Shown piece after piece: positions 12,235 through 58,820 of a stretch of 59,119 bases of DNA. The position numbers were made by a program, and so were the translations under genes. A model generated the notes under the pieces. It was not told where the DNA came from, did not search any database, and saw only the letters and a program-made list of their open reading frames with translations. The stretch's first letter is position 1. Each line of letters starts with the position of its first letter. Source of the DNA: Robiginitalea aestuariiviva (GTDB lineage Bacteria > Bacteroidota > Bacteroidia > Flavobacteriales > Flavobacteriaceae); contig NZ_JARPUQ010000002.1 of assembly GCF_029537735.1 (NCBI RefSeq), positions 15,389 through 74,507 of the forward strand, read 5' to 3'.

Positions 12235-12277
12235 GTAAGGTAAGCGCCCCGGCCCAGGACTCAAATGATGGAGGTCA
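12235..12277 (-). promoter_or_regulatory. CRP/FNR-type box plus promoter (regulon site 1)
   Basis: Palindrome TGATGGAGGTCA (12266-12277; reads TGACCTCCATCA on the minus strand) lies 23 nt from TACCTTAC (minus strand, 12242-12235), which ends 17 nt before the phosphatidyltransferase ATG. The same geometry occurs at ten other sites in the window. Confidence 0.7.
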
Positions 12278-12416
12278 GGGGAGGATTTCAGGGGGCATGG
12301 GGATCGTAGTGGCCGGTGGGGGTGGGATGAGCCAATAGGGACCCACCCGCCCACCCGTCAACAAGATAGGCGGCAACCCTGCAAACTCCCTTCAGGAAAA
12401 TGGAAAGGGAACCCCG

Positions 12417-14036
12417 TCAATCCCCATTAAAAGTGATCATCACCCCAATTACAATTGCCACGATAATGATGGAAACCACAATATCCTTCCAGTTGTAGCT
12501 GTTTTTGTTGCGCTGTTTTTCTTCCGCAGTAATGGTCCCGTAGGTCAGGTTGCGTATCTGGGCCTCGGAAGGCGCAGGGGTTAGCAGGCTTACCGTGACC
12601 AGCAGGCCAATACAGAACAGGAAAAACCAGGAGGCAAAAATCAGGAAATTGGTAGCCCCCAGGGTATGCCACAGGCTGCCCGGGGCAAAGGAATCCTTGG
12701 CGAGTTCCAGGCCAATGCGCAGGGCAGCAATCACAAACCCCGTAATCAGAGTAATATAGGCTCCCTGGGCGTTAATACGCTTGTGGAAGATCCCCAGCAG
12801 GAACACAGCCGCAATGGGCGGCGCAATATAAGACTGCACGCTCTGCAGGTATTCGTAAAGCACCCCGGAGATATTCGACATGATCGGGATCCAGATAATC
12901 CCGATCACCACCACAATGGCCGTGGCCACCTGCCCGGTGCGTACCAGTTTTTTCTCCGGCGTATTGGGCTTTAGCTTCTTGTAAATGTCCACGGTAAACA
13001 GGGTAGAACAGGAGTTAAAAACCGAAGCCAGGGAGCTCATCAGGGCGGCCAGGAGGCCAGCGGCTACCAGGCCGCGCAGACCGGAAGGCAAGAGGTTGCT
13101 CATGAGCATCGGAAAAGCCTGGTCCGGCGAATCCCAGTGCAATTCGCCCCGCATTTTCAGGGTCAGGGCAATCACCCCGGGAATCAGGAAAAGGAATACC
13201 GGCATCAGTTTGAGCAGGGCCCCGAAAATGGTCCCGCGGCGGGCTTCTTTCAGGTTCTTGGCCGTTAGCGCCCGCTGCACGATATACTGGTCCGTACACC
13301 AGTACCATATCCCTACAATGGTGCTGGAAATCACCAGCCAGGGCCAGGGGAAATCGGGGTCTGAGGCGCTGCGCCACATGTTGAGGTATTCCGGGGTTAC
13401 GGTCTCCTTCATGCTTTCCCAACCGCCCACGTGGTCCAGGCCAATAAAGGTAAGGGCAGCAGCCCCCAGCACCAGGACAATGGCCTGCAGGGTCTCGGTA
13501 TAAACCACGGCACGCATCCCGCCCAGTACGGTATAAATCCCGGTCAGCACAACCGTGGCGATAGCGCCGGTCCAGAAGTCGATGCCCAGCAGGGCAGAGA
13601 CTACCACCCCGCCCGCGTAAATGGTCACTGAAATTTTGGTGAGTACATAGGCCACAATCGAGAAGACAGACAGGATCCAGCGGGAACGCGCGTCAAAACG
13701 CTTCTCCAGGAACTCCGGCATGGTAAAGACACCGGCCCGGGAGTAGAAGGGCAGGAATACCCACCCCAGCAGGAGTACAATCCAGGCGTGAATTTCGTAG
13801 ATGAGCATGGGCAGCTTGTTGCTGGCCCCGGTGCCCGCAAGACCCACCACGTGTTCGGACCCGATGTTGGAGGCAAAGATGGAAGCCCCTACCACAAACC
13901 AGCCCACGTTCCGGCCCGCCAGGAAATAGTCTTCGGTATTGTCCCGTTTCTTCCGGATCACCCAGACGGCAATACCCAGGAGGATCAGAAAATAAAGGGA
14001 GATGGTAATCCAGTCAAAAGTGTCCAGCATTTGCAT
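12417..14036 (-). CDS. Sodium:solute symporter (SSS/SGLT family), probable arabinose transporter
   Basis: 539-residue inner-membrane transporter with about 13-14 hydrophobic helices, opening DWITISLYFLILLGIAVW and including the SSS-type stretch NTEDYFLAGRNVGWFVVGAS and GSEHVVGLAGTGA. This family couples Na+ entry to sugar uptake. It is the last gene of the minus-strand arabinose operon, 11 nt after galM, so L-arabinose is the likely cargo; specificity comes from context. No SusC/SusD pair is present in the locus, so this appears to be the only transporter encoded here. Confidence 0.88.
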   Translation of the reverse strand: MQMLDTFDWITISLYFLILLGIAVWVIRKKRDNTEDYFLAGRNVGWFVVGASIFASNIGSEHVVGLAGTGASNKLPMLIYEIHAWIVLLLGWVFLPFYSRAGVFTMPEFLEKRFDARSRWILSVFSIVAYVLTKISVTIYAGGVVVSALLGIDFWTGAIATVVLTGIYTVLGGMRAVVYTETLQAIVLVLGAAALTFIGLDHVGGWESMKETVTPEYLNMWRSASDPDFPWPWLVISSTIVGIWYWCTDQYIVQRALTAKNLKEARRGTIFGALLKLMPVFLFLIPGVIALTLKMRGELHWDSPDQAFPMLMSNLLPSGLRGLVAAGLLAALMSSLASVFNSCSTLFTVDIYKKLKPNTPEKKLVRTGQVATAIVVVIGIIWIPIMSNISGVLYEYLQSVQSYIAPPIAAVFLLGIFHKRINAQGAYITLITGFVIAALRIGLELAKDSFAPGSLWHTLGATNFLIFASWFFLFCIGLLVTVSLLTPAPSEAQIRNLTYGTITAEEKQRNKNSYNWKDIVVSIIIVAIVIGVMITFNGD

Positions 14037-14047
14037 AACGGTCGGGG

Positions 14048-15232
14048 TTAGCGGGTGGTGAATTTAAAGCGGGTTTGCGTGTGGTAGGTCTGTCCTGGGT
14101 CTAGCCGGGTGCTCGGGAATTCCGGACGGTTGGGGGAATCCGGTAAATGCTGGGTCTCCAGGCAAAGCCCTCCGCGGAAGGGGTAATACCCGCCGCCTTT
14201 GGCCGGTTGATCCCCATTGAGGAAATTGGAGGTGTACACCTGTATGCCGGGTTCTTCTGTAAAGACTTCCAGTTGCCTGCCGCTCCCCGGATGGTACGTT
14301 TTGGCAGCGGGGGTTTCGGAATCCCGCCCTTCGTCCAGTACCCAGCAGTGGTCATAACCGCCTGCCACCTGCAGCTGGGGATCCGGGGCGTCTATTTCGG
14401 CCCCGATGGCCTTAGGTTGGGTGAAGTCGAAAGGCGTCCCGGCCACAGGCTGGAAGTCTCCCGTGGGAATCAGGCCCTGGTCTACCGGCAGGTAGGCGGG
14501 GGCATCCAATTGCAGTTCGTGGTCGGTAATGGGCTGCTGGAAATTGCCTGAGAGGTTGAAATAGGTATGCTGGGTTAGGTTCACCACCGTAGGGGCATCC
14601 GTGCTGGCCTGGTAATCCACGATCAGTTCATTGTCAGGCGTCAGGGAGTAGGTCACTTCCACCTGGAGGTTCCCCGGATAGCCCTCCTCCCCATCCGGGC
14701 TCAGGTAGCCCAGGCTCAGGGAAAGGGTGTCCCCTTCGCTTTGGCCGGTAACTTCCCAGAGGACCCGGTCGAAACCGTATTCCCCCCCATGCAGGTGGTT
14801 TTCCCCGTTGTTTTTGGCCAGGGTATAGGTCTTGCCGTCCAGCTGGAAGCTCCCCTGGGCAATACGGTTGCCGTAGCGCCCGATCAGGGCTCCGAAATAC
14901 GGGTGGCGCTCCAGATAGGGCGCCAGGCGGTCAAAGCCCAAAACCACATCCTGGTAGTTTCCATCCCGGTCCGGGGCCGTCCAGCGGGTGATGATTCCCC
15001 CGTAGTTCAGGATGTCCACTTCCATACCCCGGGCATTGCGGAGCGTATACCGGGTTACCTGGCCCCCGGCCGGGAAGGGGCCGAAAAAGTGGGATTCAAT
15101 TCCGGGCTTCTGGGCTTGCTGGGTCATGGTATGTTGTTTTTGGTCCGCTTTGCCCTTGTCTTTACACCCGGTGGATAGCGCGCCAAGGAGGAGCAGGAGC
15201 AGGATCGTGGTTATGGAATTTCGGTGCTTCAT
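14048..15232 (-). CDS. galM: Aldose 1-epimerase, predicted lipoprotein
   Basis: 394-residue mutarotase that interconverts alpha and beta anomers of aldoses. The N-terminus is a lipoprotein signal (LLLLLLGALSTGC, Cys23) followed by a Lys-rich linker, so the enzyme probably sits in the periplasm or on a membrane rather than in the cytosol. Core motifs include FDRLAPYLERHPYFGALIGRYGNRI, NLTQHTYFNLSG with the conserved His, GGYDHCWVLD, and the C-terminal GGLCLETQHLPDSPNRP with the catalytic Glu. It lies between araA and the symporter in the arabinose operon, where it would supply the anomer needed for uptake or isomerisation. Confidence 0.9.
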   Translation of the reverse strand: MKHRNSITTILLLLLLGALSTGCKDKGKADQKQHTMTQQAQKPGIESHFFGPFPAGGQVTRYTLRNARGMEVDILNYGGIITRWTAPDRDGNYQDVVLGFDRLAPYLERHPYFGALIGRYGNRIAQGSFQLDGKTYTLAKNNGENHLHGGEYGFDRVLWEVTGQSEGDTLSLSLGYLSPDGEEGYPGNLQVEVTYSLTPDNELIVDYQASTDAPTVVNLTQHTYFNLSGNFQQPITDHELQLDAPAYLPVDQGLIPTGDFQPVAGTPFDFTQPKAIGAEIDAPDPQLQVAGGYDHCWVLDEGRDSETPAAKTYHPGSGRQLEVFTEEPGIQVYTSNFLNGDQPAKGGGYYPFRGGLCLETQHLPDSPNRPEFPSTRLDPGQTYHTQTRFKFTTR

Positions 15233-15262
15233 GGTACTGCTTGTTGGTTCAGTGAGCGGGAA

Positions 15263-16744: not shown

Positions 16745-16754
16745 GGGGTGTGTT

Positions 16755-19117: not shown

Positions 19118-19121
19118 CTTT

Positions 19122-21095: not shown

Positions 21096-21112
21096 ATCGG
21101 GCTGTTTTTGGG

Positions 21113-30116: not shown

Positions 30117-30159
30117 CAAAGAAAATAAAGGAAAGGCGCCTGTACCATGATCTGGGTCA
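30117..30159 (-). promoter_or_regulatory. CRP/FNR-type box plus promoter (regulon site 2)
   Basis: TGATCTGGGTCA (30148-30159) lies 23 nt from the minus-strand element TTTCTTTG (30124-30117), 17 nt before the DUF2953-like ATG. No matching element exists at this distance on the plus strand, so the divergent DUF6090 gene is probably not the target. Confidence 0.65.
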
Positions 30160-42539: not shown

Positions 42540-42582
42540 TGAAGGTAGGGGGAAGCCCTGCTTCCCGCAATGACCTGAATCA
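42540..42582 (-). promoter_or_regulatory. CRP/FNR-type box plus promoter (regulon site 3)
   Basis: TGACCTGAATCA (42571-42582) lies 23 nt from minus-strand TACCTTCA (42547-42540), which is 52 nt before the PepSY-like ATG. Confidence 0.72.
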
Positions 42583-42655: not shown

Positions 42656-42698
42656 TGACGCAGGTCAGTGGCCAGCCAGCCATTACATTGTACCTTCT
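42656..42698 (+). promoter_or_regulatory. CRP/FNR-type box plus promoter (regulon site 4)
   Basis: TGACGCAGGTCA (42656-42667) lies 23 nt before TACCTTCT (42691-42698), which ends 18 nt before the flavin reductase ATG. It shares the intergenic region with site 3 but faces the other way. Confidence 0.72.
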
Positions 42699-44494: not shown

Positions 44495-44497
44495 TCC

Positions 44498-46258: not shown

Positions 46259-46301
46259 ACAAGTTCGCACCAATTCACTGGTCCTGAAATGATATCGATC
46301 A
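46259..46301 (-). promoter_or_regulatory. CRP/FNR-type box plus promoter (regulon site 5)
   Basis: Perfect palindrome TGATATCGATCA (46290-46301) lies 23 nt from minus-strand GAACTTGT (46266-46259), 23 nt before the WG-repeat ATG. The promoter element is weaker than at other sites. Confidence 0.65.
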
Positions 46302-46787: not shown

Positions 46788-46830
46788 GGAAGATGGAGGT
46801 TTTTGGGAAATTACCCAATGACCTGGGTCA
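46788..46830 (-). promoter_or_regulatory. CRP/FNR-type box plus promoter (regulon site 6)
   Basis: TGACCTGGGTCA (46819-46830) lies 23 nt from minus-strand CATCTTCC (46795-46788), 26 nt before the DUF2267 ATG. Confidence 0.68.
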
Positions 46831-47591: not shown

Positions 47592-47634
47592 TGATGGAAA
47601 TCATGGAATCCCGTGCTTCCAAAAGGTATCTTTA
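47592..47634 (+). promoter_or_regulatory. CRP/FNR-type box plus promoter (regulon site 7)
   Basis: TGATGGAAATCA (47592-47603) lies 23 nt before TATCTTTA (47627-47634), which ends 22 nt before the UspA ATG. One of the three sites with the consensus-best promoter element. Confidence 0.78.
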
Positions 47635-47656: not shown

Positions 47657-48505
47657 ATGAAAAACGTCCTGATCCCCACCGACTTTTCCGATAATGCCAG
47701 GCATGCCCTGAACTATGCCCAGCACCTGTTCAAGGCCGAAGCCTGTACCTTCCATATCCTGCATTGCTACACCCCGGCCTTTTACCGTATGGATTATGTA
47801 ATGGGCGGCCCCGAGGTGAGCGCCATCCCGGATACCGGGGTTGACCTTTCCCTGGCCGGGCTGGAGCAAACCCTGGAGGACGCAAAGCGGGATTTTCCCA
47901 ACCCGCTGCACCGCTTTGAGATGCGCTCTGAATTCAATACCCTGACGGATGCCATACAGGAGGTGTCCCAAGCGGTCCCCCTGGACCTTATTGTCATGGG
48001 GACCCGGGGGGCAAGCGGCGCCAAGCAATTCTTCCTGGGGTCCAATACCGTTTTTGCCATCCGCAAGGCGCAGGTACCCTTACTGGCTGTACCGGAAAGG
48101 GCGCGCTTCCACCCCTTGCGCACCATCCTGTTCCCGCACGATTATCTGTATCCGGTTGGCCGGGAGGACCTGCAACCCCTGTTGCAGCTGGCCACAGCCC
48201 AGGACGCCAGGGTCATGCTGTTGCACATCGATGCGCCCGGCGGGCTTACCGATAGCCAAAAGGACCACAAAGCCGGCCTGGAGCGCGGGCTGGGTTACCT
48301 GGACTATGAGACCGTTGCAGTGGAAGCCGAAAACATCCCCCAGGCCATCCTGGAGTTTACCGAGACCCACCCCATAGACCTGTTGGCCATGATGAACCGC
48401 AAGCATACGGTACTGGAGCGGTTGCTGCAACGCCAGAAGGTAGACCAGATCGGATTCCACATACAAATCCCCTTTCTGGTCATTCCGGATCATTCGGCTC
48501 AGTAA
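47657..48505 (+). CDS. Tandem universal stress protein (UspA family)
   Basis: 282 residues with two Usp folds. The first (1-145) has MKNVLIPTDFSDNARHALNYAQ and the ATP-binding-type loop DLIVMGTRGASGAKQFFLGSNT followed by VPLLAVP. The second (about 150-282) starts RTILFPHDYLYPVG and ends IPFLVIP, with the nucleotide loop degenerate (LLAMMNRKHTVLERLLQRQ). Usp proteins support survival under starvation, oxygen limitation and other stress. Under regulon site 7, convergent with a second Usp gene. Confidence 0.88.
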   Translation: MKNVLIPTDFSDNARHALNYAQHLFKAEACTFHILHCYTPAFYRMDYVMGGPEVSAIPDTGVDLSLAGLEQTLEDAKRDFPNPLHRFEMRSEFNTLTDAIQEVSQAVPLDLIVMGTRGASGAKQFFLGSNTVFAIRKAQVPLLAVPERARFHPLRTILFPHDYLYPVGREDLQPLLQLATAQDARVMLLHIDAPGGLTDSQKDHKAGLERGLGYLDYETVAVEAENIPQAILEFTETHPIDLLAMMNRKHTVLERLLQRQKVDQIGFHIQIPFLVIPDHSAQ

Positions 48506-48553: not shown

Positions 48554-49414
48554 TCAGAAGAACAGGGTTTGCAGGTTTTGTTCGTTAAAACTCAAAAGCG
48601 GGATGTGGCTTGCGGAAGCCATTTGTTTTACCAGGTCCTTGCGGAACCAGCGTTTTACGCGGTCCCTGTGGTTGCGCTCCAGCATCCCGATCAGGCCGGC
48701 ATGCAGGTGTTCCGAATAGTCCTTAAGCGTATGGGCTACATCTTTGGATTCCAGGAGTTCGAAGTACAGGTTTTCATAATCCGTACGCTCCTGCAGCATG
48801 GATTTGAACCAGGCCATTTGGGAATCCCCAATATGCTCACGGTCCGCGGTTACATGCACCACCCGCACTTCGGCATCAAATGCCCTGGCCAGGGCAATTA
48901 CCTTTTCGAGGGCCTTGAGGTCTTCCACTTCAAAGTCTGTGGCGTAAACCATACTGGCCGGTTCTTCAAACCGGTATCCGGCGGGTACGGCCAATACGGG
49001 GCAGGGGGCTTTGTCGATAAGTTTCTTGGTGGTACTGCCCATAATGGTCTCCATCAGGCGGGTTTCGCCCTTCATTCCCACCACGATCAGCCGGGCATGC
49101 CATTCGGAGGCTTTGGAAATAATCCCGGAGAGTACGGACATATTTTCAACGGGTTCTATCTGAAGCTGCGGCAGGGTTTCTTCGGGCTTGCCCGCGTTCT
49201 CATAGAAGCGCTCCAGGCGCCTGCGCTCCGAAGCGATAGCGTCTGTATGCAGGCGGGGGTAGGGCGCCTGTAATTCCGTGCCCAGCACAGAGGGCACATC
49301 GAAGACATGGGTCAGCACCAGGCGCATTCCCAGCATCCGACTCAGGGTCTGGGCGCATTGGAGGGCAGATACCGATGCTTCGGAGTAGTCTGTGGCGTAT
49401 AGGATGGATTTCAT
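48554..49414 (-). CDS. Tandem universal stress protein (UspA family)
   Basis: 286 residues from ATG 49414 (MKSILYATDYSEASVSALQCAQ); the longer upstream frame overlaps the promoter and is rejected. Usp domain one (1-150) contains ARLIVVGMKGETRLMETIMGSTTKKLI and CPVLAVP, a good GxxG(9x)GS/T-type ATP loop. Domain two (about 155-286) has SMVYATDFEVEDLKALEKVIALA and HAGLIGMLERNHRDRVKRWF, where the loop is degenerate. Probably an ATP-binding stress protein. Under regulon site 8. Confidence 0.88.
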   Translation of the reverse strand: MKSILYATDYSEASVSALQCAQTLSRMLGMRLVLTHVFDVPSVLGTELQAPYPRLHTDAIASERRRLERFYENAGKPEETLPQLQIEPVENMSVLSGIISKASEWHARLIVVGMKGETRLMETIMGSTTKKLIDKAPCPVLAVPAGYRFEEPASMVYATDFEVEDLKALEKVIALARAFDAEVRVVHVTADREHIGDSQMAWFKSMLQERTDYENLYFELLESKDVAHTLKDYSEHLHAGLIGMLERNHRDRVKRWFRKDLVKQMASASHIPLLSFNEQNLQTLFF

Positions 49415-49436: not shown

Positions 49437-49479
49437 TAAAGATAGGTCCGGAATGCCGGGGCGTAAATGACTTGCATCA
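49437..49479 (-). promoter_or_regulatory. CRP/FNR-type box plus promoter (regulon site 8)
   Basis: TGACTTGCATCA (49468-49479) lies 23 nt from minus-strand TATCTTTA (49444-49437), 22 nt before the UspA ATG. Spacing and leader length are identical to site 7. Confidence 0.78.
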
Positions 49480-49556: not shown

Positions 49557-49584
49557 CGGTGGCAATTGAAACCTGTTTTCTCCC

Positions 49585-51678
49585 ATGAATAAAGCCATTT
49601 ACATAGCTACCATCGAGGCCTTCAGCGGCAAATCCATCATCTCCCTGGGCCTGATGCAACTCCTCCTGGGTAAAATGGCCCGGGTGGGATATTTCCGTCC
49701 CGTTATAGACGATTATCCGGAGGGGACCCGGGACAACCACATCGAAACTATCCTGGAACACTTTAACCTCCCTATGGCTTATGAAGAAACCTATGCCTGC
49801 ACACGCAGCCAGGTGGTGCTTAAGCTAAGCCGGGATCAGGAAGACGAGGTGGTAGACAGCATCATCGAAAAATACAAGCGCATCGAAAGCCGTTTCGACT
49901 TTGTGCTGGTAGAGGGCACGGATTTTACAGGGGAGGGAGCCATCATAGAGTGGGATTTCAATGTCCTGATCGCCAAAAACCTGGGGTTGCCTACCATTGT
50001 CCTTTCCACCGGGGTGGGCAAGGGCCTGGAAGAATTTGTCAATGCCCTGGCCCTGGCCTGTGATTCCTTTAAGGACAAGGGGGTGGAGGTCCTGATGGCG
50101 GTTGCCAATAAGATACAACCCGAAAACCGGGAGCTGGTCCTGCAGCGGCTCGGGGAACAACTGCCCGAAGGGGTTCTTACGGCGGCTATCCCGCTGAACC
50201 CGACCCTGGGGAACCCCAGCATGCGCGAAATTGTGGAAGCAGTACAGGGAGAAGTCCTGTTCGGGAAGGAAAACCTGGAGCGGCAGGTAGGTCATTACGG
50301 GGTAGGGGCCATGCAGTTGCGGAATTACCTCACCCATATAGGGGAAGATACTTTGGTGGTCACCCCGGGGGACCGGGCGGATATCATCCTGGGGGCGCTG
50401 CAGGCGCACCTGTCTGCCAATTACCCGTCTATCTCCGGGATTATCCTGACGGGAGGATTACTGCCGGAAGCGCCCATTATCAAGCTTATTGAAGGCTTGT
50501 CCGAGGTGGTACCCATTGTTTCCGCCCAGGGGGGCACGTTTTCCGTAGCCAATACCGTAGGTTCCATACAGCCCCGGATCTACGCCGGCAACGCCCTGAA
50601 GATTGAAACCTCCCTGAAGGACTTTTCTACCTATGTGCCCGAGGACGAATTAACCGAGCGGCTGGTTACCTTCCAGCCCAACGGGATTACCCCCAGGATG
50701 TTTCAGTACAACCTGTTGAAGAAGGCACAAACAACCCCCAAACACATCGTATTGCCGGAGGGGACAGATTCGCGTATCCTCCGGGCCACCCGGGACCTGA
50801 TCCACCACGGGGCGGCCCGCCTGACCCTGCTGGGCGACCCGGAGCTGATCCGCGCCCGGGTTAAGGACCTGAAACTGGACCTGGACCTGAATACCGTAAC
50901 TGTGCTGGACCCGCGTTCCGCTCCCCGTTTTGAGGAGTATGCGGAAACCCTCTATGAACTCCGCAAACACAAAAACATGGACATGACCATGGCCCGGGAC
51001 CTGATGACGGATGTTTCATATTTCGGGACCATGATGGTCTACAAAGGCCATGCAGATGGGATGGTTTCAGGCGCCGCCCACACCACGCAACACACCATTC
51101 GCCCGGCCCTGCAGTTTGTGAAAACACGCCCAGGGGTTTCCCTGGTATCCTCAATTTTCTTTATGTGTCTGCCCGACCGTGTTGTGGTCTTCGGAGACTG
51201 TGCCATCAACCCCAATCCCACGGCAGCCGAACTGGCAGCCATTGCCATTTCTTCCGCAGATACCTCCATGGCCTTTGGTATCGAACCCCGGATTGCCATG
51301 CTGTCCTATTCCTCCGGAAGCTCCGGGAAGGGAGCCGATGTGGAACGCGTACGGGAGGCGACCGCCCTGGTGCGGGCCCAGCGCCCGGATCTGAAGATAG
51401 AGGGCCCCATTCAATACGATGCTGCAGTAAGCCCGGAAGTAGGCCGGAGCAAACTCCCGGACTCTGAGGTGGCAGGTCGCGCCACTGTTTTTATCTTTCC
51501 GGACCTCAATACCGGGAACAACACCTATAAGGCCGTTCAGCGGGAAACCGGCGCCCTGGCAATAGGGCCTATGCTGCAAGGGCTCAATAAACCGGTAAAT
51601 GACCTGAGCCGCGGCTGTACTGAAGAGGATATCTTCAACACCGTTGTCATTACGGCTATCCAGGCCCAGGAAGTATAA
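49585..51678 (+). CDS. pta: Phosphate acetyltransferase
   Basis: 697-residue enzyme interconverting acetyl-CoA and acetyl phosphate. It is the long, three-part form: an N-terminal P-loop-like AAA_26 domain (about 1-215, AIYIATIEAFSGKSIISLGL), a DRTGG domain (about 220-330), and the catalytic PTA_PTB domain (about 375-690) with HIVLPEGTDSRILRA, DGMVSGAAHTTQHTIRPAL and ATVFIFPDLNTGNNTYKAVQR. The pair pta-ackA (21 nt apart) makes ATP and acetate during overflow or oxygen-limited growth. Acetyl phosphate can also phosphorylate response regulators. Confidence 0.96.
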   Translation: MNKAIYIATIEAFSGKSIISLGLMQLLLGKMARVGYFRPVIDDYPEGTRDNHIETILEHFNLPMAYEETYACTRSQVVLKLSRDQEDEVVDSIIEKYKRIESRFDFVLVEGTDFTGEGAIIEWDFNVLIAKNLGLPTIVLSTGVGKGLEEFVNALALACDSFKDKGVEVLMAVANKIQPENRELVLQRLGEQLPEGVLTAAIPLNPTLGNPSMREIVEAVQGEVLFGKENLERQVGHYGVGAMQLRNYLTHIGEDTLVVTPGDRADIILGALQAHLSANYPSISGIILTGGLLPEAPIIKLIEGLSEVVPIVSAQGGTFSVANTVGSIQPRIYAGNALKIETSLKDFSTYVPEDELTERLVTFQPNGITPRMFQYNLLKKAQTTPKHIVLPEGTDSRILRATRDLIHHGAARLTLLGDPELIRARVKDLKLDLDLNTVTVLDPRSAPRFEEYAETLYELRKHKNMDMTMARDLMTDVSYFGTMMVYKGHADGMVSGAAHTTQHTIRPALQFVKTRPGVSLVSSIFFMCLPDRVVVFGDCAINPNPTAAELAAIAISSADTSMAFGIEPRIAMLSYSSGSSGKGADVERVREATALVRAQRPDLKIEGPIQYDAAVSPEVGRSKLPDSEVAGRATVFIFPDLNTGNNTYKAVQRETGALAIGPMLQGLNKPVNDLSRGCTEEDIFNTVVITAIQAQEV

Positions 51679-51699
51679 TCGCGAAACCTATTCCCTACG

Positions 51700-52890
51700 A
51701 TGCAAACCAAAATCCTAGTCCTGAACAGCGGGAGCTCTTCCCTTAAATTCCAGCTTTTAAAAATGCCTTCGGAGCAACGCCTCTGCCAGGGCCTGGTGGA
51801 ACGAATCGGAGGGGAAGGTCCGCGGATGCGCGTAAAGGCAGGTGGCAGGGAATGGGAATCCGAACTGGATGCCCCAGACCACGGAAGTGCGCTGGAGGCC
51901 ATTGTACAGGTACTTACGGATCCTCAGTACCAGCTATTGGAAGATGCCGGGCAACTGGCGGCAGTGGGGCACCGGGTGGTGCATGGCGGTCCCCGCTACA
52001 ACCAAACCGTGGCGATCACGGAAGACGTTAAACAAACCATTGAAGAACTGTCCCGCCTGGCCCCCCTGCACAACCCGCCCAATCTGGAAGGGATCCGGGT
52101 GGCCGAAGCCTGTTTCCCCCGGGCCGTGCAGGTTGCCGTTTTCGATACGGCTTACCACAGAAGTATCCCCGAACACGCTCGCAGATACGCCCTGCCCGAG
52201 GAACTTTACCAGGAACACGACATCCAGGTTTTTGGCTTCCACGGTACTTCTCACCAGTATGTGGCCGGGGAAATGGCTGCCGAGTTGCCTGCCGATGGCA
52301 AGATGGTAAGCCTCCACCTTGGGAATGGTTGCAGCGCCACAGCCATTCGCGGCGGAAAGAGTGTAGACCACAGCCTGGGCTTTACCCCGGGTAACGGACT
52401 CATTATGGGGTCGCGCAGTGGCGACATCGACCATGGTATAGTCCTCTATCTGGCCGAAGCGCTGGGCTACAAGCCCGGGGAGCTTCGCCAGCTCTTCAAT
52501 GCGGAAAGCGGGCTTAAAGGCCTCACCGGGTATAGCGACCTGAGGGATGTGGAAGCCGGGGAAGCCCGGGGCGATGCCGCCTGCCGTCTGGCGCTGGAAA
52601 TGACGGCCTACCGGATCCGGAAATACATCGGGGCGTACGCCGCAGCCATGGACGGGCTGGATGCCCTGGTCTTCACAGCCGGGATCGGGGAGCATTCCAG
52701 TCGGATGCGGGAACTGGTATGCCGCGGCCTGACCTATCTGGGCCTGCACCTGGATGCAGGGCGTAACCAGAACCCCGGTGAGGGAAAACAAGCCATCCAC
52801 ACCCCGGATTCCCGGGTGTCTATCTGGATTGTCCCTACCGATGAGGAACTGGAAATTGCCCGCCAGACCTATGCGGTACTGGGGGCATAA
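51700..52890 (+). CDS. ackA: Acetate kinase
   Basis: 396-residue enzyme of the ASKHA superfamily that converts acetyl phosphate and ADP to acetate and ATP. Conserved segments are ILVLNSGSSSLKFQL, GHRVVHGGPRYNQ, AVFDTAYHRSIP, FGFHGTSHQYVA, SLHLGNGCSATAI, GLIMGSRSGDIDHGI and LDALVFTAGIGEHSS. Length matches AckA. It is convergent with the coiled-coil gene downstream. Confidence 0.96.
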   Translation: MQTKILVLNSGSSSLKFQLLKMPSEQRLCQGLVERIGGEGPRMRVKAGGREWESELDAPDHGSALEAIVQVLTDPQYQLLEDAGQLAAVGHRVVHGGPRYNQTVAITEDVKQTIEELSRLAPLHNPPNLEGIRVAEACFPRAVQVAVFDTAYHRSIPEHARRYALPEELYQEHDIQVFGFHGTSHQYVAGEMAAELPADGKMVSLHLGNGCSATAIRGGKSVDHSLGFTPGNGLIMGSRSGDIDHGIVLYLAEALGYKPGELRQLFNAESGLKGLTGYSDLRDVEAGEARGDAACRLALEMTAYRIRKYIGAYAAAMDGLDALVFTAGIGEHSSRMRELVCRGLTYLGLHLDAGRNQNPGEGKQAIHTPDSRVSIWIVPTDEELEIARQTYAVLGA

Positions 52891-52908
52891 CCCTATGAAT
52901 AGAGAGGC

Positions 52909-53319
52909 TTACCAGTTACGGGCGTAGCCAAACACCATTTTTTTGAATTCGCGGAAATCCGCGCCAAACACTTCCATTTTACCGGCCAGGCGACGGTGTT
53001 CGTCCCGATAGTCCGCGTCGGCCAGCCCGGCTTCTGCCCGTTGGATGCGGCTTAGCAGCTGTTCATGAGCCAGGAGTTCCTCGGCCAGGTACTCAAAGAG
53101 CATCTGATGAAGCCGGTCCAGGTTCGCGAGCATGCCGGTATAAGCAGCCTGGTCCTGTACTTGCTCCCGGCGCTGGCGAAGCAGGGAGTCAAAAAATCGC
53201 GTTTCATCTTTCCAGAAGGCAACGGTTTCCAGCCACTCCTGGCTTTGCCGGTGCAGTTCTTCCAGCCCTTCTGCCAGCAGGTAGTCACTGCGGGAGATGA
53301 GTTTTTTGGTGGGGTTCAT
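52909..53319 (-). CDS. Small coiled-coil protein
   Basis: 136 residues, highly charged and almost entirely helical by composition (LAEGLEELHRQSQEWLETVAFWKDETRFFDSLL..., LDRLHQMLFEYLAEELLAHEQLLSRIQRAE). No membrane helix, no catalytic motif, no family I can name. It starts 10 nt after the sigma-like gene and shares its promoter (regulon site 9). It could be a partner or anti-factor of that regulator; this is inferred from gene order only. Confidence 0.68.
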   Translation of the reverse strand: MNPTKKLISRSDYLLAEGLEELHRQSQEWLETVAFWKDETRFFDSLLRQRREQVQDQAAYTGMLANLDRLHQMLFEYLAEELLAHEQLLSRIQRAEAGLADADYRDEHRRLAGKMEVFGADFREFKKMVFGYARNW

Positions 53320-53329
53320 GGGGGTATCT

Positions 53330-54100
53330 TTAAAATTCTTCTAATTTTTCCTTCAGGGATAATTGCAGGATTTCCCGGGTGCGCTCCAGGGTGCGGGATA
53401 CTTCAGCCACGGATTGCATCTTGATGGCGGCAATTTCCTCCAGGCTGAAGAGCTGCTCGTGAGCCAGTTCAAAGACGCTGCGCATCTGGGCCGGCATACT
53501 GAAGAGCAGGCGCTCCAGGTGTTCTGCAGCATCCGGAGCCGGCCGGTTGGCGTCGGTCAGGGCCATCATGTCCTCGTGCGCATCGTCCAGGAAGATGTTC
53601 TGCAAGAGGTGGCGGTGGTCCTGATAGGAGATATCGTCCAGTTCTTCCAGCATCACCAGGTCCCCGTCCCCGTCCGTGCTGAAGTTTTCCAGCATTTCGG
53701 AGTATTCGGCCCGGAGGTAGTCGTCCAGGTTGTCGTAAAATACGGCATCAAAGACCTCCTCTACCTCCATGTCTTCCAGGAGTTTTTCGGCCCGGTTAAA
53801 TAACCAGCTGTGGAAGGCTTCCGCAGAAGGAACTTCGTCAAGGTGGTCCAACACCTCCAGGAACAACTGGTCAAAAAAATCGTCAGGCTTGTATTTGTTA
53901 TGGGAAATCACCCCCTTGGCCAGGGCCAGCCTCAGGCCACGGGTAATGTAACGTTTTACGTCGGGCAGGACTTTCAGCAATACTTCGTTGAAGGCCTTGC
54001 GGTTGTCTTCGGCTTGCAGGGCTACCAGCCTCGGGTAACTCTCGGCGACAAACCGGTTAAATTCGGCCTGCCGTTTGTCGTAGTGCACCTTATTTTTCAT
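53330..54100 (-). CDS. Divergent sigma-70-family (ECF-like) regulator
   Basis: 256 residues. The C-terminal 60 residues resemble sigma region 4 (LLFSMPAQMRSVFELAHEQLFSLEEIAAIKMQSVAEVSRTLERTREILQLSL), with the helix-turn-helix in SLEEIAAIKMQSVAEVSRTL. The N-terminal half (AEDNRKAFNEVLLKVLPDVKRYITRGL, then KPDDFFDQLFLEVLDHLDE) aligns only loosely with region 2, and a long acidic insert lies between (NLDDYLRAEYSEMLENFSTDGDGDLVML). It may be a very divergent sigma factor or a DNA-binding regulator that kept only region 4. Under regulon site 9. Confidence 0.65.
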   Translation of the reverse strand: MKNKVHYDKRQAEFNRFVAESYPRLVALQAEDNRKAFNEVLLKVLPDVKRYITRGLRLALAKGVISHNKYKPDDFFDQLFLEVLDHLDEVPSAEAFHSWLFNRAEKLLEDMEVEEVFDAVFYDNLDDYLRAEYSEMLENFSTDGDGDLVMLEELDDISYQDHRHLLQNIFLDDAHEDMMALTDANRPAPDAAEHLERLLFSMPAQMRSVFELAHEQLFSLEEIAAIKMQSVAEVSRTLERTREILQLSLKEKLEEF

Positions 54101-54127
54101 GACGCCTACCTATTTTGGGATTACACC

Positions 54128-54170
54128 TGAAGTTCCGTAATGCCCTGCCCAAAACAAATGATCTTTATCA
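54128..54170 (-). promoter_or_regulatory. CRP/FNR-type box plus promoter (regulon site 9)
   Basis: TGATCTTTATCA (54159-54170) lies 23 nt from minus-strand GAACTTCA (54135-54128), 27 nt before the sigma-like ATG. The box overlaps the stop codon of the upstream response regulator gene. Confidence 0.66.
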
Positions 54171-55247
54171 GCCCGCCGGCTGATAGTCTGCCATTCGTGC
54201 CAGGCGTTCGGGGTCCGTAATAAAGATCTCACGGGCTCGCCCCATACGGATTATCCCTTCTGCCCGGAGTTCGGAGAGGGCCCGGATGGCGGTTTCGGTG
54301 GCTGTGCCCACCATCCCGGCCAGGTCCTCCCGGGCAATTTCAAGGGCTTCGGTATCCCGGTGCCGGGCCACCCCAAGATCCTGAAGTTTTAAAAGGGTCC
54401 GGGCCACGCGGTGTTTTACCGGCCAGTAGGCCATTTGCATGAGCTGTTCTTTCAGGTCAATCAGGTCGCCGGAGATCAGTTCCATAAAGCGGTGGGCCAC
54501 TTCCGGGCTGCGATCCAGCAAATGGACAAAGTCCGATTTGGGAATGGCGTAAATTTCCGAAGGCTCCATTACCCAGGCAGATTCCAGATAGGTGCCCCCG
54601 GGGTTCAACAAGTCAAGCTGCCCCACAAATTGTCCGGGTCCGAACAGGCCGCTAACCAGTTCTTTCCCGGATTCTGCGGTTTTGTAGCATTTCACCAGCC
54701 CCGTATGCATATAATACAGGAAATGCGCCCCGTCTCCCTCCCGGAAAAGGTAGTCCCGGGGGGCATACTCCCGGGCGTAATACTTCCTTTCAATGTGGTC
54801 CAGATTCAGGTAGGCTGCCGCCTCCTCTACAAAGGCAGTCACCCCGTGTAAATCCTTGCTGAACTCCCGCTGCAGGAAATCGTGTTTTTTCAGACGGGAG
54901 TTTACGGCCCCCAGCAATTCGGCCTCCTCAAACGGCTTGGTGAGGTAGTCATCCGCTCCCATATCCATGCCCTTGCGCACATCGGTTTTTTCCGTTTTTG
55001 CCGTCAGGAATATAAAGGGGATGCGTGCCGTGGCGGGGTTGCGCTGCAGCCGTTCCAGCAGTTGGTATCCGTCCATGCCGGGCATCATGATGTCGCACAG
55101 AATCAGGTCTGGTTCAAAACGGTTTGCCTTTTCCAGACCGCTGCGGCCATCCGGGGCCGTACGCACGTTAAAACCCGCCAGTTCCAATAGGTCTGCGGTG
55201 TTCTCACGAACATCGTCGTGGTCCTCAATAATCAGAATCCGTTTCAT
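54168..55247 (-). CDS. REC-CRP response regulator (receiver plus CRP/FNR DNA-binding)
   Basis: 359 residues from ATG 55247. Receiver domain 1-120 with acidic pocket EDHDD (8-12), phosphoacceptor Asp52 (LILCDIMMPG), Thr82 and Lys104. A cyclic-nucleotide-binding-type barrel follows (about 150-265), but the phosphate cassette reads FVGQLDLLNPGGTYLESAW: Gln210 and Glu222 replace the Glu and Arg that bind cAMP in CRP, so it probably does not bind cAMP. The HTH_CRP region (about 299-345) has recognition helix TATETAIRALSEL, keeping the Glu (318) and Arg (322) that read TGA in CRP/FNR. Encoded with a LOV kinase (23-nt overlap), so phosphorylation by it is likely. Best candidate for the regulator of the eleven boxes. 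Confidence 0.9.
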   Translation of the reverse strand: MKRILIIEDHDDVRENTADLLELAGFNVRTAPDGRSGLEKANRFEPDLILCDIMMPGMDGYQLLERLQRNPATARIPFIFLTAKTEKTDVRKGMDMGADDYLTKPFEEAELLGAVNSRLKKHDFLQREFSKDLHGVTAFVEEAAAYLNLDHIERKYYAREYAPRDYLFREGDGAHFLYYMHTGLVKCYKTAESGKELVSGLFGPGQFVGQLDLLNPGGTYLESAWVMEPSEIYAIPKSDFVHLLDRSPEVAHRFMELISGDLIDLKEQLMQMAYWPVKHRVARTLLKLQDLGVARHRDTEALEIAREDLAGMVGTATETAIRALSELRAEGIIRMGRAREIFITDPERLARMADYQPAG

Positions 55248-58074
55248 GGTTTCCCGGTTTATAGGTTTTTGGCAGGGTAATGCGGAAGGTGCTGCCCCGG
55301 CCTTCAGCACTCTCAAAATCTATGGTACCGCCCATCAGGTCGGTATATTGTTTCACAATATGGAGCCCCAGCCCGGTCCCCGGGATGTTTATGGCGTTGC
55401 GGGCGCGGAAGAACCGGTGGAAGAGTTGGTCCTGTTCGCTTCGGGGGATGCCCATGCCGCGGTCGGTCACCGAGAGTTGGATCTGGCTCGAAGCCGGTTG
55501 CAGCGCAATGTATATGGGGCTGTTTTCCGGCGAATACTTGATGGCGTTGGAAAGGAGGTTAATGAGGATATGGCGGGTGAGTTTTGGGTCTAAACGCACC
55601 TCGGCGTCTGGGAGGCTGTAACGTTCTACAAAATACTGCCCCACTTTCAGGCTGGTTTCCAGTTCTTCCAGCACCGAACCGAGAAGGGACAGGAGGTCAA
55701 AATCCGAAGCTTTGCACCGGATTTCGCCTTCCTCGAGGCGGGAAAGCGACAGGAAATCGTCCAGGATCACCACCAGGTTGCGCACATTGTTCTTGATCTG
55801 TTTGGTGTAGCGCTGGCGCTTGCCTTCCTGGGAAGCATGGTTCTGTTTTTCGATCAGGATGGCCGAGGAGAGAATGGCGCTTAGCGGGGTCCGGAATTCA
55901 TGGGATGCCATGGAGATAAACCGCGACTTCAGGTCGTTGAGTTCCTGTTCGGTCCGCAGGGCGCGAAGCAATTCTTGCTGGGTGCGTTTCTGGCGGGTGG
56001 TATTGCTCCACACCAGCAGGGCCCATTGGATTTGGCCATCTACCGTAAGGGGAGTGGTGTGCACGGCATAGGTGTTTCCGGCCCGCTCCAACTCAAAGCT
56101 CAGGTGTTTGCCCTCCAATGTGGCGCGAACCTTGGAATTCAGGGTCTTGAGCTGATGGGCCGAAAACCCCGGCAGGTCCGAAACGTTGGCGCCGTAATGG
56201 TTCCATTCCTCCAGGTCAAGGGATTCGAGTTCTTCTCCTTCTAGGTGTACCAGTTGCATGGAGGGGTCGGCCACCAGGATAATCCCTTTCGGAAAATTGC
56301 GCGCCATGGCGGTAAAGAGGACATGACTGGCCAGGGCCCGGCGTTCCGCTTCCTGTGTGGTGGTAATTTGTTGTTCCAGGTTCCGGTTCGACTCCTGCAG
56401 GCGTTCCACTGTTTCTTCCAGTTCGTGTGTGCGAATGGCTACGCGCTGTTCCAGCTTCCGGGCATAGGATTCCAATTGCTGATGGCTTTGTTGCAGCCGC
56501 TGGCGGGTCTGGTGACGTTCAATGGCTACCCGCGCCAGTTGCAACACTTCCCGTATAGCTTCGCGCTGGGGGGTATCCGGCTTTACGCGCCCGGGGATTA
56601 AAAAGGTGCAACTCCCCAATACCTCCTGGTGGGAGGAACGGATCGGAAAGGCCCAGACGGAAGCTTCACCCCTTTGCGGTGGCGTTTTGCTTGTGGGAAA
56701 AGAAGGGCTTTGGGCAGCGGGGATCACCCGGATAATCTCACGGTTGGCACGCACGGCATCTGCGATATCCCCGAAGCCGTCTTTTTTCAGTGAAATACAG
56801 GGGGGTGGTATGGCCCTCGCCCGATGCGGACCCCGGGTGGCCAGGGTTTCCAGGCAATGCCGCCCGGGATGCAGCAGGTGCATATGTACCGTGGCAGCGG
56901 CCAGGGGCAGGCGCAAGAGATCGCAAAGGGAGCTCGATATGCGTTGCAGGGGCGCATCGCCGGTGATTTCCTCCAGGATTTTGTGGATGCGGTCCTTCCT
57001 GCGGGCTTCGGTTACCTGCAGGCTTACATCCCGGACCACCCCGATAAAGTGATGAGGTTCCCCCTCTGGCCCCACGATGGGGGTCAGGGTAAGTTCGTTC
57101 CAGAACAAGCTGCCGTCCTTCCGGTAATTGCGCAATATCTCCGAGCAGGGTTCCCGGGCTTCCAGGCATTGTTTAATACGCCGGATTCCAGGTTGTTTCC
57201 GGTCATTTCCCTGCAGGAAACGGCAATTTCGCCCCAGGACTTCTTCCGGTTGGTACCCCGTAATTTCGGTGAAGGCGGAATTGATATAGATCACCGGTTG
57301 GTCCGGCAGGCGGGCATCGGAAATAACAAACCCGTTCCCCGCGGCTTCCAGGGCGCGGTTGCGCAGGTTCAGCACGTTCTGCACGGTCTTTGCCTGGGTG
57401 ACCTCCCGTACTATGGAGAGGATTTTGTGATTGTTCATGGGCACCAGGCGGGCTTCGTAGTGCGCTTTGGCCTGGGGGCCCAGGCTAAATTCCAGGTGCC
57501 TGGGGTTACGGTCTTTTCGGATCGCATCAAAGGCTTCAAGAAAACGGTTGGTAAGCTTTTGCGGAAAGAAGGCCTCCATATTGTGCCCTCGAATTTCCGT
57601 GCCGGGTTCAAAAAGCGGGCCGCTTATAGGGGGGTAATATTCCAGGAAATTACCCTGGAAATCCTGGATGAATATACTGTCGGGAATGGCCTCAATAAGG
57701 GCGTTCAATTGGGTTTGCTGCGCTTTGAGGCGGATTTCGGCACGGGTGTCGGCCTCCAGGTCTCGCAGGAAGACCAGTTGGTAATCCAGTTCTTCCAGCA
57801 GGGGGCTGAATCGCATCAGCACCGGCAGGTCTCCCCGGTCTTTGGAGTGCAGGATATGCAGGGCTTCCTGCCCCGGGCTTCCCGCCTGCCCGGGCACCTC
57901 TTCCACCAGGGACCAGAGATCCTTCCCATGGATTTCAGAGGAGAGGAAACCAAACAGGCTCTCTGCGGGCGTATTGAGTTGGAGGATGCGTCCCTGAGGG
58001 TCAAGCAACGCAAGCCCCTGCGCGGCCAGGTTTTTGGCCCCGGCGCTAAGGGAATATGTGGCCAGGCGACTCAT
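55225..58074 (-). CDS. LOV/PAS/GAF hybrid sensor histidine kinase
   Basis: 949 residues, soluble (no membrane helix seen). Order: PAS (about 15-108), PAS (122-228), LOV-type PAS (about 240-352), GAF-like (358-520), coiled coil (520-580), PAS-like (585-693), HisKA (about 712-780) and HATPase (about 828-937). The LOV core is GRNCRFLQG (281-289), with Cys284 placed to form the flavin adduct under blue light. The adjacent residues are VIYINSAFTEITGY and Asn326 (SLFWNEL), but the usual FIGVQ reads FIGVV (Val347). Kinase parts are intact: His725 (SMASHEFRTPLS), N box NLLSNAIKYS, DRGMGIP, GTGLGLHIVK. Its promoter carries regulon site 10. Encoded with the REC-CRP regulator. Confidence 0.92.
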   Translation of the reverse strand: MSRLATYSLSAGAKNLAAQGLALLDPQGRILQLNTPAESLFGFLSSEIHGKDLWSLVEEVPGQAGSPGQEALHILHSKDRGDLPVLMRFSPLLEELDYQLVFLRDLEADTRAEIRLKAQQTQLNALIEAIPDSIFIQDFQGNFLEYYPPISGPLFEPGTEIRGHNMEAFFPQKLTNRFLEAFDAIRKDRNPRHLEFSLGPQAKAHYEARLVPMNNHKILSIVREVTQAKTVQNVLNLRNRALEAAGNGFVISDARLPDQPVIYINSAFTEITGYQPEEVLGRNCRFLQGNDRKQPGIRRIKQCLEAREPCSEILRNYRKDGSLFWNELTLTPIVGPEGEPHHFIGVVRDVSLQVTEARRKDRIHKILEEITGDAPLQRISSSLCDLLRLPLAAATVHMHLLHPGRHCLETLATRGPHRARAIPPPCISLKKDGFGDIADAVRANREIIRVIPAAQSPSFPTSKTPPQRGEASVWAFPIRSSHQEVLGSCTFLIPGRVKPDTPQREAIREVLQLARVAIERHQTRQRLQQSHQQLESYARKLEQRVAIRTHELEETVERLQESNRNLEQQITTTQEAERRALASHVLFTAMARNFPKGIILVADPSMQLVHLEGEELESLDLEEWNHYGANVSDLPGFSAHQLKTLNSKVRATLEGKHLSFELERAGNTYAVHTTPLTVDGQIQWALLVWSNTTRQKRTQQELLRALRTEQELNDLKSRFISMASHEFRTPLSAILSSAILIEKQNHASQEGKRQRYTKQIKNNVRNLVVILDDFLSLSRLEEGEIRCKASDFDLLSLLGSVLEELETSLKVGQYFVERYSLPDAEVRLDPKLTRHILINLLSNAIKYSPENSPIYIALQPASSQIQLSVTDRGMGIPRSEQDQLFHRFFRARNAINIPGTGLGLHIVKQYTDLMGGTIDFESAEGRGSTFRITLPKTYKPGNHETDSDY

Positions 58075-58107
58075 CAGGTGGACTTTAAGGGCTGGCTGGT
58101 AATCTTA

Positions 58108-58150
58108 TAAAGATAGGCATAACCCCTGTTAAAAAGCATGACTTGTATCA
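58108..58150 (-). promoter_or_regulatory. CRP/FNR-type box plus promoter (regulon site 10, kinase/regulator operon)
   Basis: TGACTTGTATCA (58139-58150) lies 23 nt from minus-strand TATCTTTA (58115-58108), 33 nt before the kinase ATG. It puts the two-component operon under the same type of site it is proposed to bind. Confidence 0.78.
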
Positions 58151-58188
58151 TAAAAACACCCCTCCAATTCCCGTGGAAACTGGAGGGG
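58151..58188 (-). terminator. Terminator of the Hsp20 gene
   Basis: Perfect 8-bp stem cccctcca/tggagggg (58159-58188) is followed on the minus strand by TGTTTTTAT. It ends Hsp20 transcription directly before regulon site 10. Confidence 0.7.
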
Positions 58189-58272
58189 ATTTGCCCGTGG
58201 GACTCCAAAACACTGAGGGCTTATGAACAATGGTATCTGATTTATACAGAGTCCCCCGTCAGAGCCGGAGCG

Positions 58273-58734
58273 TTATCCGACTTCGATGACTTTGGGCGCT
58301 TTTTTCTCGGCTTCAGCCCTTTTAAGGACATTGAAGCTCAGGATGCCGTCGTGGTACCGTGCTTTGATCGCTTCTTCCTTCACATTTTCCGGAAGTTGCA
58401 TGGAGCGTTCAAAAGCATTGTAGTGGAATTCGCGACGGGTGAACATTTCATCCTTTTCGGTTTCGGTCTGTTTTTTCTCTGCGGAGATATTCAGGTATCC
58501 GTCCTCGATGGTTACGTTAAAGTCCTTTTTGGAAAATCCGGGAGCGGCCAGTTCAATTTCATAGTGGTCGTCGGTTTCCTTGATGTTCATTGCGGGCTCT
58601 ACCGTTTTGCCATTCCAGAAGTCGGTTTCCATCATACCACCTTTCCACAAGCGGGAATCAAAAAAATCGTCCATGTCGAAGAAATCCTGGCGCAGCAGGT
58701 TTCCAAACGGCCTTTTGAATTTTACAAGTGTCAT
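58273..58734 (-). CDS. Small heat shock protein, Hsp20/alpha-crystallin family
   Basis: 153 residues from ATG 58734; a longer frame reading from 59013 crosses the tRNA and the promoter and is not real. N-terminal arm FGNLLRQDFFDMDDFFDSRLW, alpha-crystallin domain (about 45-145: AMNIKETDDHYEIELAAPGFSKKDF, YLNISAEKK, GILSFNVLKR) and a C-terminal I-x-V motif (VIEV). ATP-independent chaperone that holds unfolding proteins. Under regulon site 11. Confidence 0.92.
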   Translation of the reverse strand: MTLVKFKRPFGNLLRQDFFDMDDFFDSRLWKGGMMETDFWNGKTVEPAMNIKETDDHYEIELAAPGFSKKDFNVTIEDGYLNISAEKKQTETEKDEMFTRREFHYNAFERSMQLPENVKEEAIKARYHDGILSFNVLKRAEAEKKAPKVIEVG

Positions 58735-58777
58735 AGCGATTTGTGTTAAAAAATTAGACTTCAGGTGAATTCTGGCC

Positions 58778-58820
58778 CCAAAGTATCGGGTTTGTCCGGT
58801 TCCTGAAATGATCCAGGTCA
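58778..58820 (-). promoter_or_regulatory. CRP/FNR-type box plus promoter (regulon site 11)
   Basis: TGATCCAGGTCA (58809-58820) lies 23 nt from minus-strand TACTTTGG (58785-58778), 43 nt before the Hsp20 ATG. Confidence 0.72.

Follow-up and report, generated by a model that had tools for sequence, protein, structure and literature searches.

A CRP/FNR-type box at a fixed distance from a -7-like element in Robiginitalea aestuariiviva: a probable low-oxygen and stress promoter type with two candidate activators

The DNA considered here, called the window, is a stretch of 59,119 nucleotides (nts) from the flavobacterium Robiginitalea aestuariiviva (contig NZ_JARPUQ010000002.1 of assembly GCF_029537735.1, positions 15,389 to 74,507). 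It contains eleven promoters in which a 12-bp palindrome, TGAYnnnnRTCA (the box), is followed by an 8-mer with the fixed letters TAnnTT (the element) at a constant spacing of 23 nts, counted between the two. Twelve such palindromes occur in the window, and all but one have an element exactly 23 nts downstream (Table 1). TAnnTT is complete in seven of the 11 elements, while the remaining four (TTTCTTTG, GAACTTGT, CATCTTCC and GAACTTCA) match three of the four fixed letters. The element ends 17 to 52 nts before the ATG at all 11 sites, and each box is a TGA-N6-TCA dyad, as the search definition itself imposes. The eleven boxes, the 8-mers, the 23-nt spacing and the distances to the ATG had been described in an earlier sequence-only reading of this DNA, and all of them are present in the sequence.

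Table 1. Boxed promoters of the window and the regulatory genes among them.
Feature	Position	Strand	Element (position)	Downstream genes or domains
Box TGACCTCCATCA	12266..12277	-	TACCTTAC (12235-12242)	CDP-alcohol phosphatidyltransferase 11621-12217 (Pfam PF01066)
Box TGACCCAGATCA	30148..30159	-	TTTCTTTG (30117-30124)	166-aa protein 29599-30099
Box TGATTCAGGTCA	42571..42582	-	TACCTTCA (42540-42547)	169-aa protein 41978-42487, signal-peptide-like start
Box TGACGCAGGTCA	42656..42667	+	TACCTTCT (42691-42698)	flavin reductase-like 42717-43328, then M20 peptidase and DUF1611-like P-loop genes to 45526
Box TGATCGATATCA	46290..46301	-	GAACTTGT (46259-46266)	WG-repeat protein 45579-46235
Box TGACCCAGGTCA	46819..46830	-	CATCTTCC (46788-46795)	DUF2267 protein 46309-46761
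Box TGATGGAAATCA	47592..47603	+	TATCTTTA (47627-47634)	Usp 47657-48505
Box TGATGCAAGTCA	49468..49479	-	TATCTTTA (49437-49444)	Usp 48554-49414
Box TGATAAAGATCA	54159..54170	-	GAACTTCA (54128-54135)	sigma-70-like 53330-54100 and 52909-53319
Box TGATACAAGTCA	58139..58150	-	TATCTTTA (58108-58115)	kinase and REC-CRP genes
Box TGACCTGGATCA	58809..58820	-	TACTTTGG (58778-58785)	Hsp20 58273-58734
Twelfth palindrome	57282..57293		none at 23 nts on either strand	inside the kinase coding sequence; not counted as a site
REC-CRP	54168..55316	-		receiver PF00072, cNMP-binding fold PF00027, Crp-type helix-turn-helix PF13545
Sensor histidine kinase	55225..58074	-		Pfam PAS, HisKA, HATPase; 3′ end overlaps the REC-CRP open reading frame

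One of the boxed units encodes a candidate regulator, here called REC-CRP, together with a sensor histidine kinase. REC-CRP has the features of a response regulator, namely a receiver domain (112 bits against PF00072) and an adjoining histidine kinase gene with HisKA and HATPase domains. Its PF00027 and PF13545 matches also lie above the cut-off, and the Asp, Thr and Lys of the receiver are present as judged by eye. The open reading frame (ORF) begins at TTG, with a probable ATG start near 55247.

In 200 simulations of a first-order Markov sequence, the window was expected to hold a mean of 2.1 palindromes and held at most 8, against the 12 observed; at equal base frequencies the expectation is 3.6 (59119/16384), which agrees with the three to four chance boxes estimated earlier. 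The binomial probability that at least 11 of 12 boxes carry at least three of the four letters at one spacing is 2.9e-12, or 1.3e-10 after correction for 45 spacings. The full element lies at 23 nts in 7 of 24 box-strands and in no more than one at every other spacing from 5 to 49 nts. Because the window itself had suggested the rule, an independent sample of 40 evenly spaced 20-kb stretches outside it (800 kb, 25% of the genome) was examined. This sample holds 41 palindromes where 25.7 are expected, and the full TAnnTT lies at 23 nts in 8 of 82 box-strands as against 0 to 2 at each other spacing from 5 to 49 nts. At no other distance between 5 and 49 nts does a peak appear, and alternatives such as a class I position farther upstream were rejected on this ground. 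Behind the eight full sites lie, among others, genes for a cbb3 oxidase, for PEPCK, for a Usp and for a TonB-like protein. Two further 23-nt sites match three of the four letters; the first precedes the gene of a CcoI-type copper ATPase, while the second appears to be spurious. These genes were first named by eye, and the cbb3, PEPCK and ATPase assignments were then firmed up by family models. With 11 sites in 59 kb, compared to 10 with at least three letters in 800 kb, the window is a dense cluster.

The centre of an activator site that overlaps the promoter in the class II manner, as for CRP and FNR, lies at -41.5. The 8-bp element resembles the usual sigma-A -7 element of Bacteroidota. In an alignment of 60 sites, picked for at least three of the four letters so that the element frequencies are selected (one sample match, L119 plus strand, was omitted), the fixed places hold T in 80%, A in 95%, T in 98% and T in 100% of sites. 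A T immediately 3′ of the box, which was not a selection criterion, is found in 93% of them. In the available text of the start-site map of Flavobacterium psychrophilum, the sigma-A box TAnnTTTG lies at -12 to -5 (PMC9723704). If this -7 position also holds here, the fixed 23-nt spacing would place the 12-bp box at -47 to -36 and its centre at -41.5. The class II geometry proposed from the sequence, with a centre near -42, thereby receives indirect support.

A model of the site, R1, was built from 53 of the 60 aligned sites (11 from the window, 9 from the sample and 33 from REC-CRP loci), seven doubtful ones having been dropped by eye. Its counts favour similar sites, and they are lower bounds, since at most 150 candidates per genome were scored, and at most 24 per genome in the run across the family. 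In the 3.2-Mb genome, R1 finds at least 33 matches when E values up to 10 are allowed, none of them with an E above 0.55. Ten of the 11 window sites are among these, site 30148 being the one missed; 1 of 30 inspected matches lacks the strict palindrome. Typical targets of FNR regulons are a high-affinity oxidase, hemN and the genes of anaerobic pyruvate metabolism. By family models, the genes behind the boxes encode a ccoN-type cbb3 subunit, HemN (the oxygen-independent coproporphyrinogen oxidase), PEPCK, PPDK, pyridoxamine oxidase-like, Usp and CBS proteins, the N-terminal part of a pyruvate:ferredoxin oxidoreductase (PFOR, of which the first 471 amino acids (aa) were read) and, from the 800-kb sample, a heavy-metal CcoI-type P-type ATPase. 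Hence the FNR-type list is represented by ccoN, the CcoI-type ATPase, HemN and PFOR. Because respiratory and energy genes lie behind boxes genome-wide, and Hsp20 and Usp genes in the window, the sites are read as a low-oxygen and stress regulon that is not a closed set of eleven. Of the eleven-promoter regulon first proposed, the sites are real, whereas the closed set gives way to about 33 model matches genome-wide; similarly, the stress genes stand, although the content is equally one of low-oxygen respiration and energy metabolism (cbb3, ccoI, hemN, PFOR, PEPCK, PPDK).

The same box, spacing and element recur in relatives, at the REC-CRP loci L009 to L014 and L017 to L021, while L015 and L016 hold no palindrome at all. 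The three best REC-CRP matches are from Robiginitalea, and in all three loci the arrangement precedes the Hsp20, kinase, sigma-like and Usp genes, and in L009 the DUF2267 and WG genes as well. Farther away, Usp or Hsp20 genes are preceded by such sites in Robertkochia (L018, L021), in Flavobacterium (L020), in Marinoscillum (L012) and in Ekhidna (L014); the genes of all these loci were named by eye. Within the genus, REC-CRP is present in 8 of 10 genomes, one copy being a fragment at a contig end. At E<=1, R1 gives at least 33 to 40 matches in the seven near-complete genomes with REC-CRP and at least 21 in the eighth, which is 74% complete, compared to at least 11 and at least 14 in the two genomes without it (G191 and G250, no REC-CRP match at E<=1e-30). 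Neither of these two contributed training sites to R1, and nor did G249, G251 and G256, which nonetheless fall within the 33 to 40 group. In G191 and G250, sites of the same geometry precede HemN, CcoI-like, TonB-like and Usp genes.

Across the family, R1 has one or more matches in 223 of 249 genomes (E up to 0.3). The median is at least 15 matches in the 113 genomes with REC-CRP and at least 5 in the 130 without (Mann-Whitney p 9e-24, which, like all P values here, ignores shared ancestry). The comparison took 243 of the 249 genomes; the other six had no model match and were not among the REC-CRP genomes. Among genomes at least 95% complete and at least 2.5 Mb long, the medians are at least 15 with REC-CRP (104 genomes) and at least 6 without (72). 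The excess of the box-23-nt-element combination and the conservation in relatives that the sequence-only reading had proposed to look for were thus both found, the former in the spike of the 800-kb sample and in the R1 matches, the latter in REC-CRP loci and in genus and family genomes.

A second candidate activator is an FNR-like protein of 230 aa, whose gene is flanked by a Usp gene on one side and by the CcoI/cbb3 genes on the other. Its recognition helix, VGTATESCIRILSEF, is near-identical to that of REC-CRP, VGTATETAIRALSEL, and both contain the Glu and Arg that we take to read TGA in CRP and FNR. Four cysteines, including an extra C55, are conserved in nine of nine genus orthologs; C6, C9 and C108 line up with three cysteines of a structurally characterised FNR, and the score against the NCBIfam Fnr model NF008365 is 99.6 bits, under the cut-off of 228. 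The conserved cysteines suggest redox or oxygen sensing. Orthologs occur in 9 of 10 genus genomes (77-100% identical) and in 156 of 249 family genomes (E<=1e-45). This protein is the likelier reader of many of the sites. What supports the proposal that REC-CRP is a regulator is its co-occurrence with the sites, many of which would fall to the second CRP/FNR protein. Four family genomes (G106, G182, G062 and G221) have no REC-CRP match at E<=1e-40 and either 23 or at least 24 model sites, with an FNR-like match in all four; the FNR-like regulon may be larger in these genomes, or a different activator may be at work.

Within the genus the sites fall into two classes, here called F and R. The sites analysed were 30 of the 33 matches of the R. 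aestuariiviva genome together with two manually added window sites, 30 of 40 from G251, 30 of 39 from G249 and all 25 of G191 and G250; three of these 117 sites, without a strict palindrome, were dropped. In R. aestuariiviva a T stands at the eighth box position in 1 of 11 window sites as against 17 of the 20 others (Fisher 6e-5). A mixture model that was given no location labels favours two classes (Bayesian information criterion 3088.6, compared to 3158.7 for one class and 3189.5 for three), with the consensus TGAY-nAWT-RTCATaTTT for F and TGAY-nCAG-RTCATTTC for R. It places 22 of 23 sites of the genomes without REC-CRP in F and 27 of 33 sites near REC-CRP in R. When the sites are grouped by their eighth base, further differences show at positions 6, 7, 14 and 18, so that the difference covers box bases 6 to 8 and the flanking bases 14 and 18.

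Scoring with one genome left out at a time, which also took sites of L009 to L011 (training loci of R1, not of the class matrices), found R-like sites in 11 of 11 cases near REC-CRP and in 3 of 20 elsewhere in R. aestuariiviva; the eighth base both defines and scores the classes, so that such scores are partly circular, a reservation that does not extend to the covariation at positions 6, 7 and 14. At many orthologous promoters the class is constant: R for Hsp20 (5/5), UspA (6/6), the sigma-like gene (6/6), DUF2267 (4/4) and the PepSY-like gene (3/3), and F for HemN (4/4), CBS (4/4), the cbb3-linked Usp (3/3) and PPDK (3/3). The promoter of the kinase/REC-CRP operon is of class F in four of five genomes, the exception being the window itself (the G249 kinase was assigned by position).

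The kinase encoded beside REC-CRP has a LOV-like PAS domain at about residues 248-351, and the top PDB matches of residues 234-398 are sensory-box and blue-light photoreceptor chains. Its motif GRNCRFLQG contains GXNCRFLQ with the presumed photoactive Cys, which we take to be the LOV motif. The position on the last LOV strand that presumably holds a flavin-contacting Gln is Val in the window (FIGVVRDVS) and Ile in L009 (FIGVIRDVS), while L019 has Gln (FIGIQNDVS), all judged by eye. A general role of LOV as the signal of the system found no support, as a six-frame scan of the 13 other REC-CRP loci (L009 to L021) found the motif in L009 and L019 only; ten loci lack it, and L015 does not reach the upstream gene. 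The predicted sensor input of REC-CRP kinases varies between loci. Phosphate acetyltransferase and acetate kinase genes lie within the box cluster (49585-52890, + strand), where palindrome 49468 has no element at 23 nts on their strand; acetyl phosphate might matter for a regulator with a receiver domain.

The explanation that we favour, with a probability of about two in three, is a class II CRP/FNR regulon in which two paralogous activators, the FNR-like protein and REC-CRP, share one promoter frame. In the mechanism that we infer, a dimer of either protein would bind TGAYnnnnRTCA(T) at -41.5, beside a T-rich, weak -33 region, and would act in activation rather than repression by recruiting sigma-A polymerase at TAnnTTTG-like -7 elements, as the geometry suggests. 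The FNR-like protein would read mainly F boxes of the form TGAYnWTRTCATnTTT, such as those of hemN, ccoI, the cbb3-linked Usp, PPDK and CBS genes. REC-CRP, switched by phosphorylation from the adjoining PAS/LOV kinase, would read mainly R boxes of the form TGAYnCARRTCATTT, which prevail in the neighbourhood of its own gene (Hsp20, Usp, DUF2267, sigma-like) and could form the stress branch in Robiginitalea. Because an F-class box precedes the kinase/REC-CRP operon in four of five genomes, a cascade from the FNR-like protein through this operon to the stress genes is suggested. The more detailed picture stands at even odds: a flavobacterial two-input network of FNR type, in which an FNR-like protein responding to oxygen or redox state and a phosphorylation-gated REC-CRP meet on the same -41.5 dyad, a few inner and flanking bases discriminate between them in Robiginitalea, the PAS/LOV kinase adds light or redox input, and the FNR-like protein switches on the kinase/REC-CRP operon.

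Several observations weigh against the two-activator explanation. The DUF2267 gene occurs in seven of the eight genus genomes with REC-CRP and in neither of the two without, so the lower site number without REC-CRP is partly due to gene loss. In the family, 13 genomes without REC-CRP have at least 14 matches and nine with it have six or fewer among the matches listed, and 94 of the 113 family REC-CRPs are only 36-44% identical and hence putative orthologs. The FNR-like protein has Asn at the counterpart of the third N-terminal cluster cysteine, so that it lacks the full set that we take to be cysteines 20, 23, 29 and 122 in E. coli FNR, and a more distant CRP/FNR protein of the same genome may be a further candidate. 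The class contrast is also uneven. Away from REC-CRP in G251 and G249, the mixture classes are mixed (14 F, 24 R), R-like sites are common (12/20 and 14/18, respectively), and the contrast in the eighth base between sites near REC-CRP and elsewhere is weak (p = 0.13). Three of the 23 sites of genomes without REC-CRP score R-like, including the G250 site before its WG gene. Some orthologous promoters switch class: UspB (4 R/2 F), the phosphatidyltransferase (2 R/1 F), another Usp (3 R/1 F), the pyridoxamine-oxidase-like gene (2 F/1 barely R), the TonB-like gene (4 F/1 R) and the kinase (4 F/1 R). Outside the genus, no class split follows REC-CRP, R-like sites numbering 7 of 40 without and 10 of 40 with it (p = 0.59) among the first 40 sites of each kind in the matches listed, genus members skipped. 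TAnnTT stands at 23 nts in 37 and 40 of these model-selected sites, respectively. The extension of the F and R classes to the whole family, looked for in these 80 sites of other genera, was not found.

This result outside the genus fits an alternative in which the FNR-like protein alone reads all sites, REC-CRP, though encoded nearby, has other targets, and the classes mirror promoter strength or base composition. The wide distribution of FNR-like orthologs and the persistence of sites in genomes lacking REC-CRP speak for it as well. However, within the genus both the site number and the R class drop without REC-CRP while the FNR-like protein remains, many orthologous promoters keep their class, and family site counts follow REC-CRP (phylogeny being ignored), which makes this alternative unlikely. 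An alternative sigma factor that reads the element, with the box as an accessory, is much less probable. The candidate at 53330-54100 is itself among the eleven units and weakly matches sigma-70/ECF models, but this 256-aa protein scores 40 bits against TIGR02937 (sigma70-ECF), under the cut-off of 42.9, the element resembles the sigma-A -7 consensus, and the same promoter type recurs in many genera. REC-CRP as the activator of all sites is more improbable still: it sits in the dense box cluster and its presence tracks site number, but it was rejected as sole activator because same-geometry matches persist in the two genus genomes that lack it. Coincidence of base composition and a loose 8-mer, to which the four incomplete elements lend some colour, is rejected as practically negligible by the corrected binomial test, the spacing spike in both the window and the 800 kb, and the conservation before orthologous genes in relatives.

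Other products of the window are less informative. The 166-aa and 169-aa proteins have no Pfam or NCBIfam match at E 0.001, a 136-aa protein encoded co-directionally with the sigma-70-like gene has none either, and the DUF1611 match of the P-loop gene lies below the Pfam cut-off. A protein with TPR and class III adenylate/guanylate cyclase domains (31143-33119, +) is encoded 0.7 kb from a PycTM-type membrane protein resembling Pycsar effectors (33860-34393, -; PF18967, PADLOC PycTM 1e-22). The two may constitute a Pycsar-like anti-phage pair, although their genes converge. An ORF of 1531 aa (1779-6374, +) contains eight DUF285 stretches and PKD domains.

The FNR/FixK class II consensus of Proteobacteria is TTGATnnnnATCAA, Usp and small heat-shock targets are known from FNR/FixK-type regulons, and FNR/DNR paralogs share near-identical boxes. 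The promoters described here have the TGAnnnnnnTCA core of these regulons, and their box centre would lie at the same -41.5. Unlike in the FNR box, the outer TT/AA is not required and a T follows instead; the -7 element is that of Bacteroidota, the FNR-like protein lacks one cluster-cysteine counterpart, and the second candidate activator is a receiver-domain CRP. In Dinoroseobacter (FnrL/Dnr) and Herbaspirillum (Fnr orthologs), several CRP/FNR paralogs similarly divide the oxygen response, according to the available text; in contrast, one of the two proteins here would be under the control of a two-component kinase, and the class difference lies in box bases 6 to 8 and the flanking bases 14 and 18. 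The available text on Caulobacterales gives cco and hemN as FixK targets, as they are predicted targets here, and describes FixLJ-FixK cascades in which the signal of a sensor kinase is passed on to a CRP/FNR-type activator of low-oxygen genes (PMC4999443). Here the receiver and CRP domains are in one protein, and the kinase would act on the activator itself and not on its gene. The F. psychrophilum map shares the TAnnTTTG box at -12 to -5 and, in its available text, the low-oxygen theme, with cbb3 oxidase and heme biosynthesis induced by oxygen limitation; by term counts, its main text does not contain the words Fnr and Crp (PMC9723704). MalR-type roles have been predicted for CRP/FNR homologs of some Flavobacteriales metagenome-assembled genomes, according to the available text (PMC8510549). 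Among titles and abstract beginnings of the open-licence literature, which give weak evidence of absence, no description of this box in Flavobacteriaceae or of this REC-CRP was recognised. The FNR/FixK-type promoter architecture is not new in kind; what sets this system apart is the fused receiver-CRP protein as a candidate activator, together with a -7 partner of flavobacterial type and the division of the boxes into two subclasses.

The Flavobacteriaceae are a major marine group in which, to our knowledge, few transcription factor regulons have been worked out. The rigid distance from the box to the -7 element would provide a rule for low-oxygen and stress regulation that can be read from genomes across much of the family, and the system would allow one to study how a receiver-domain CRP and an FNR-like paralog may divide nearly identical sites.

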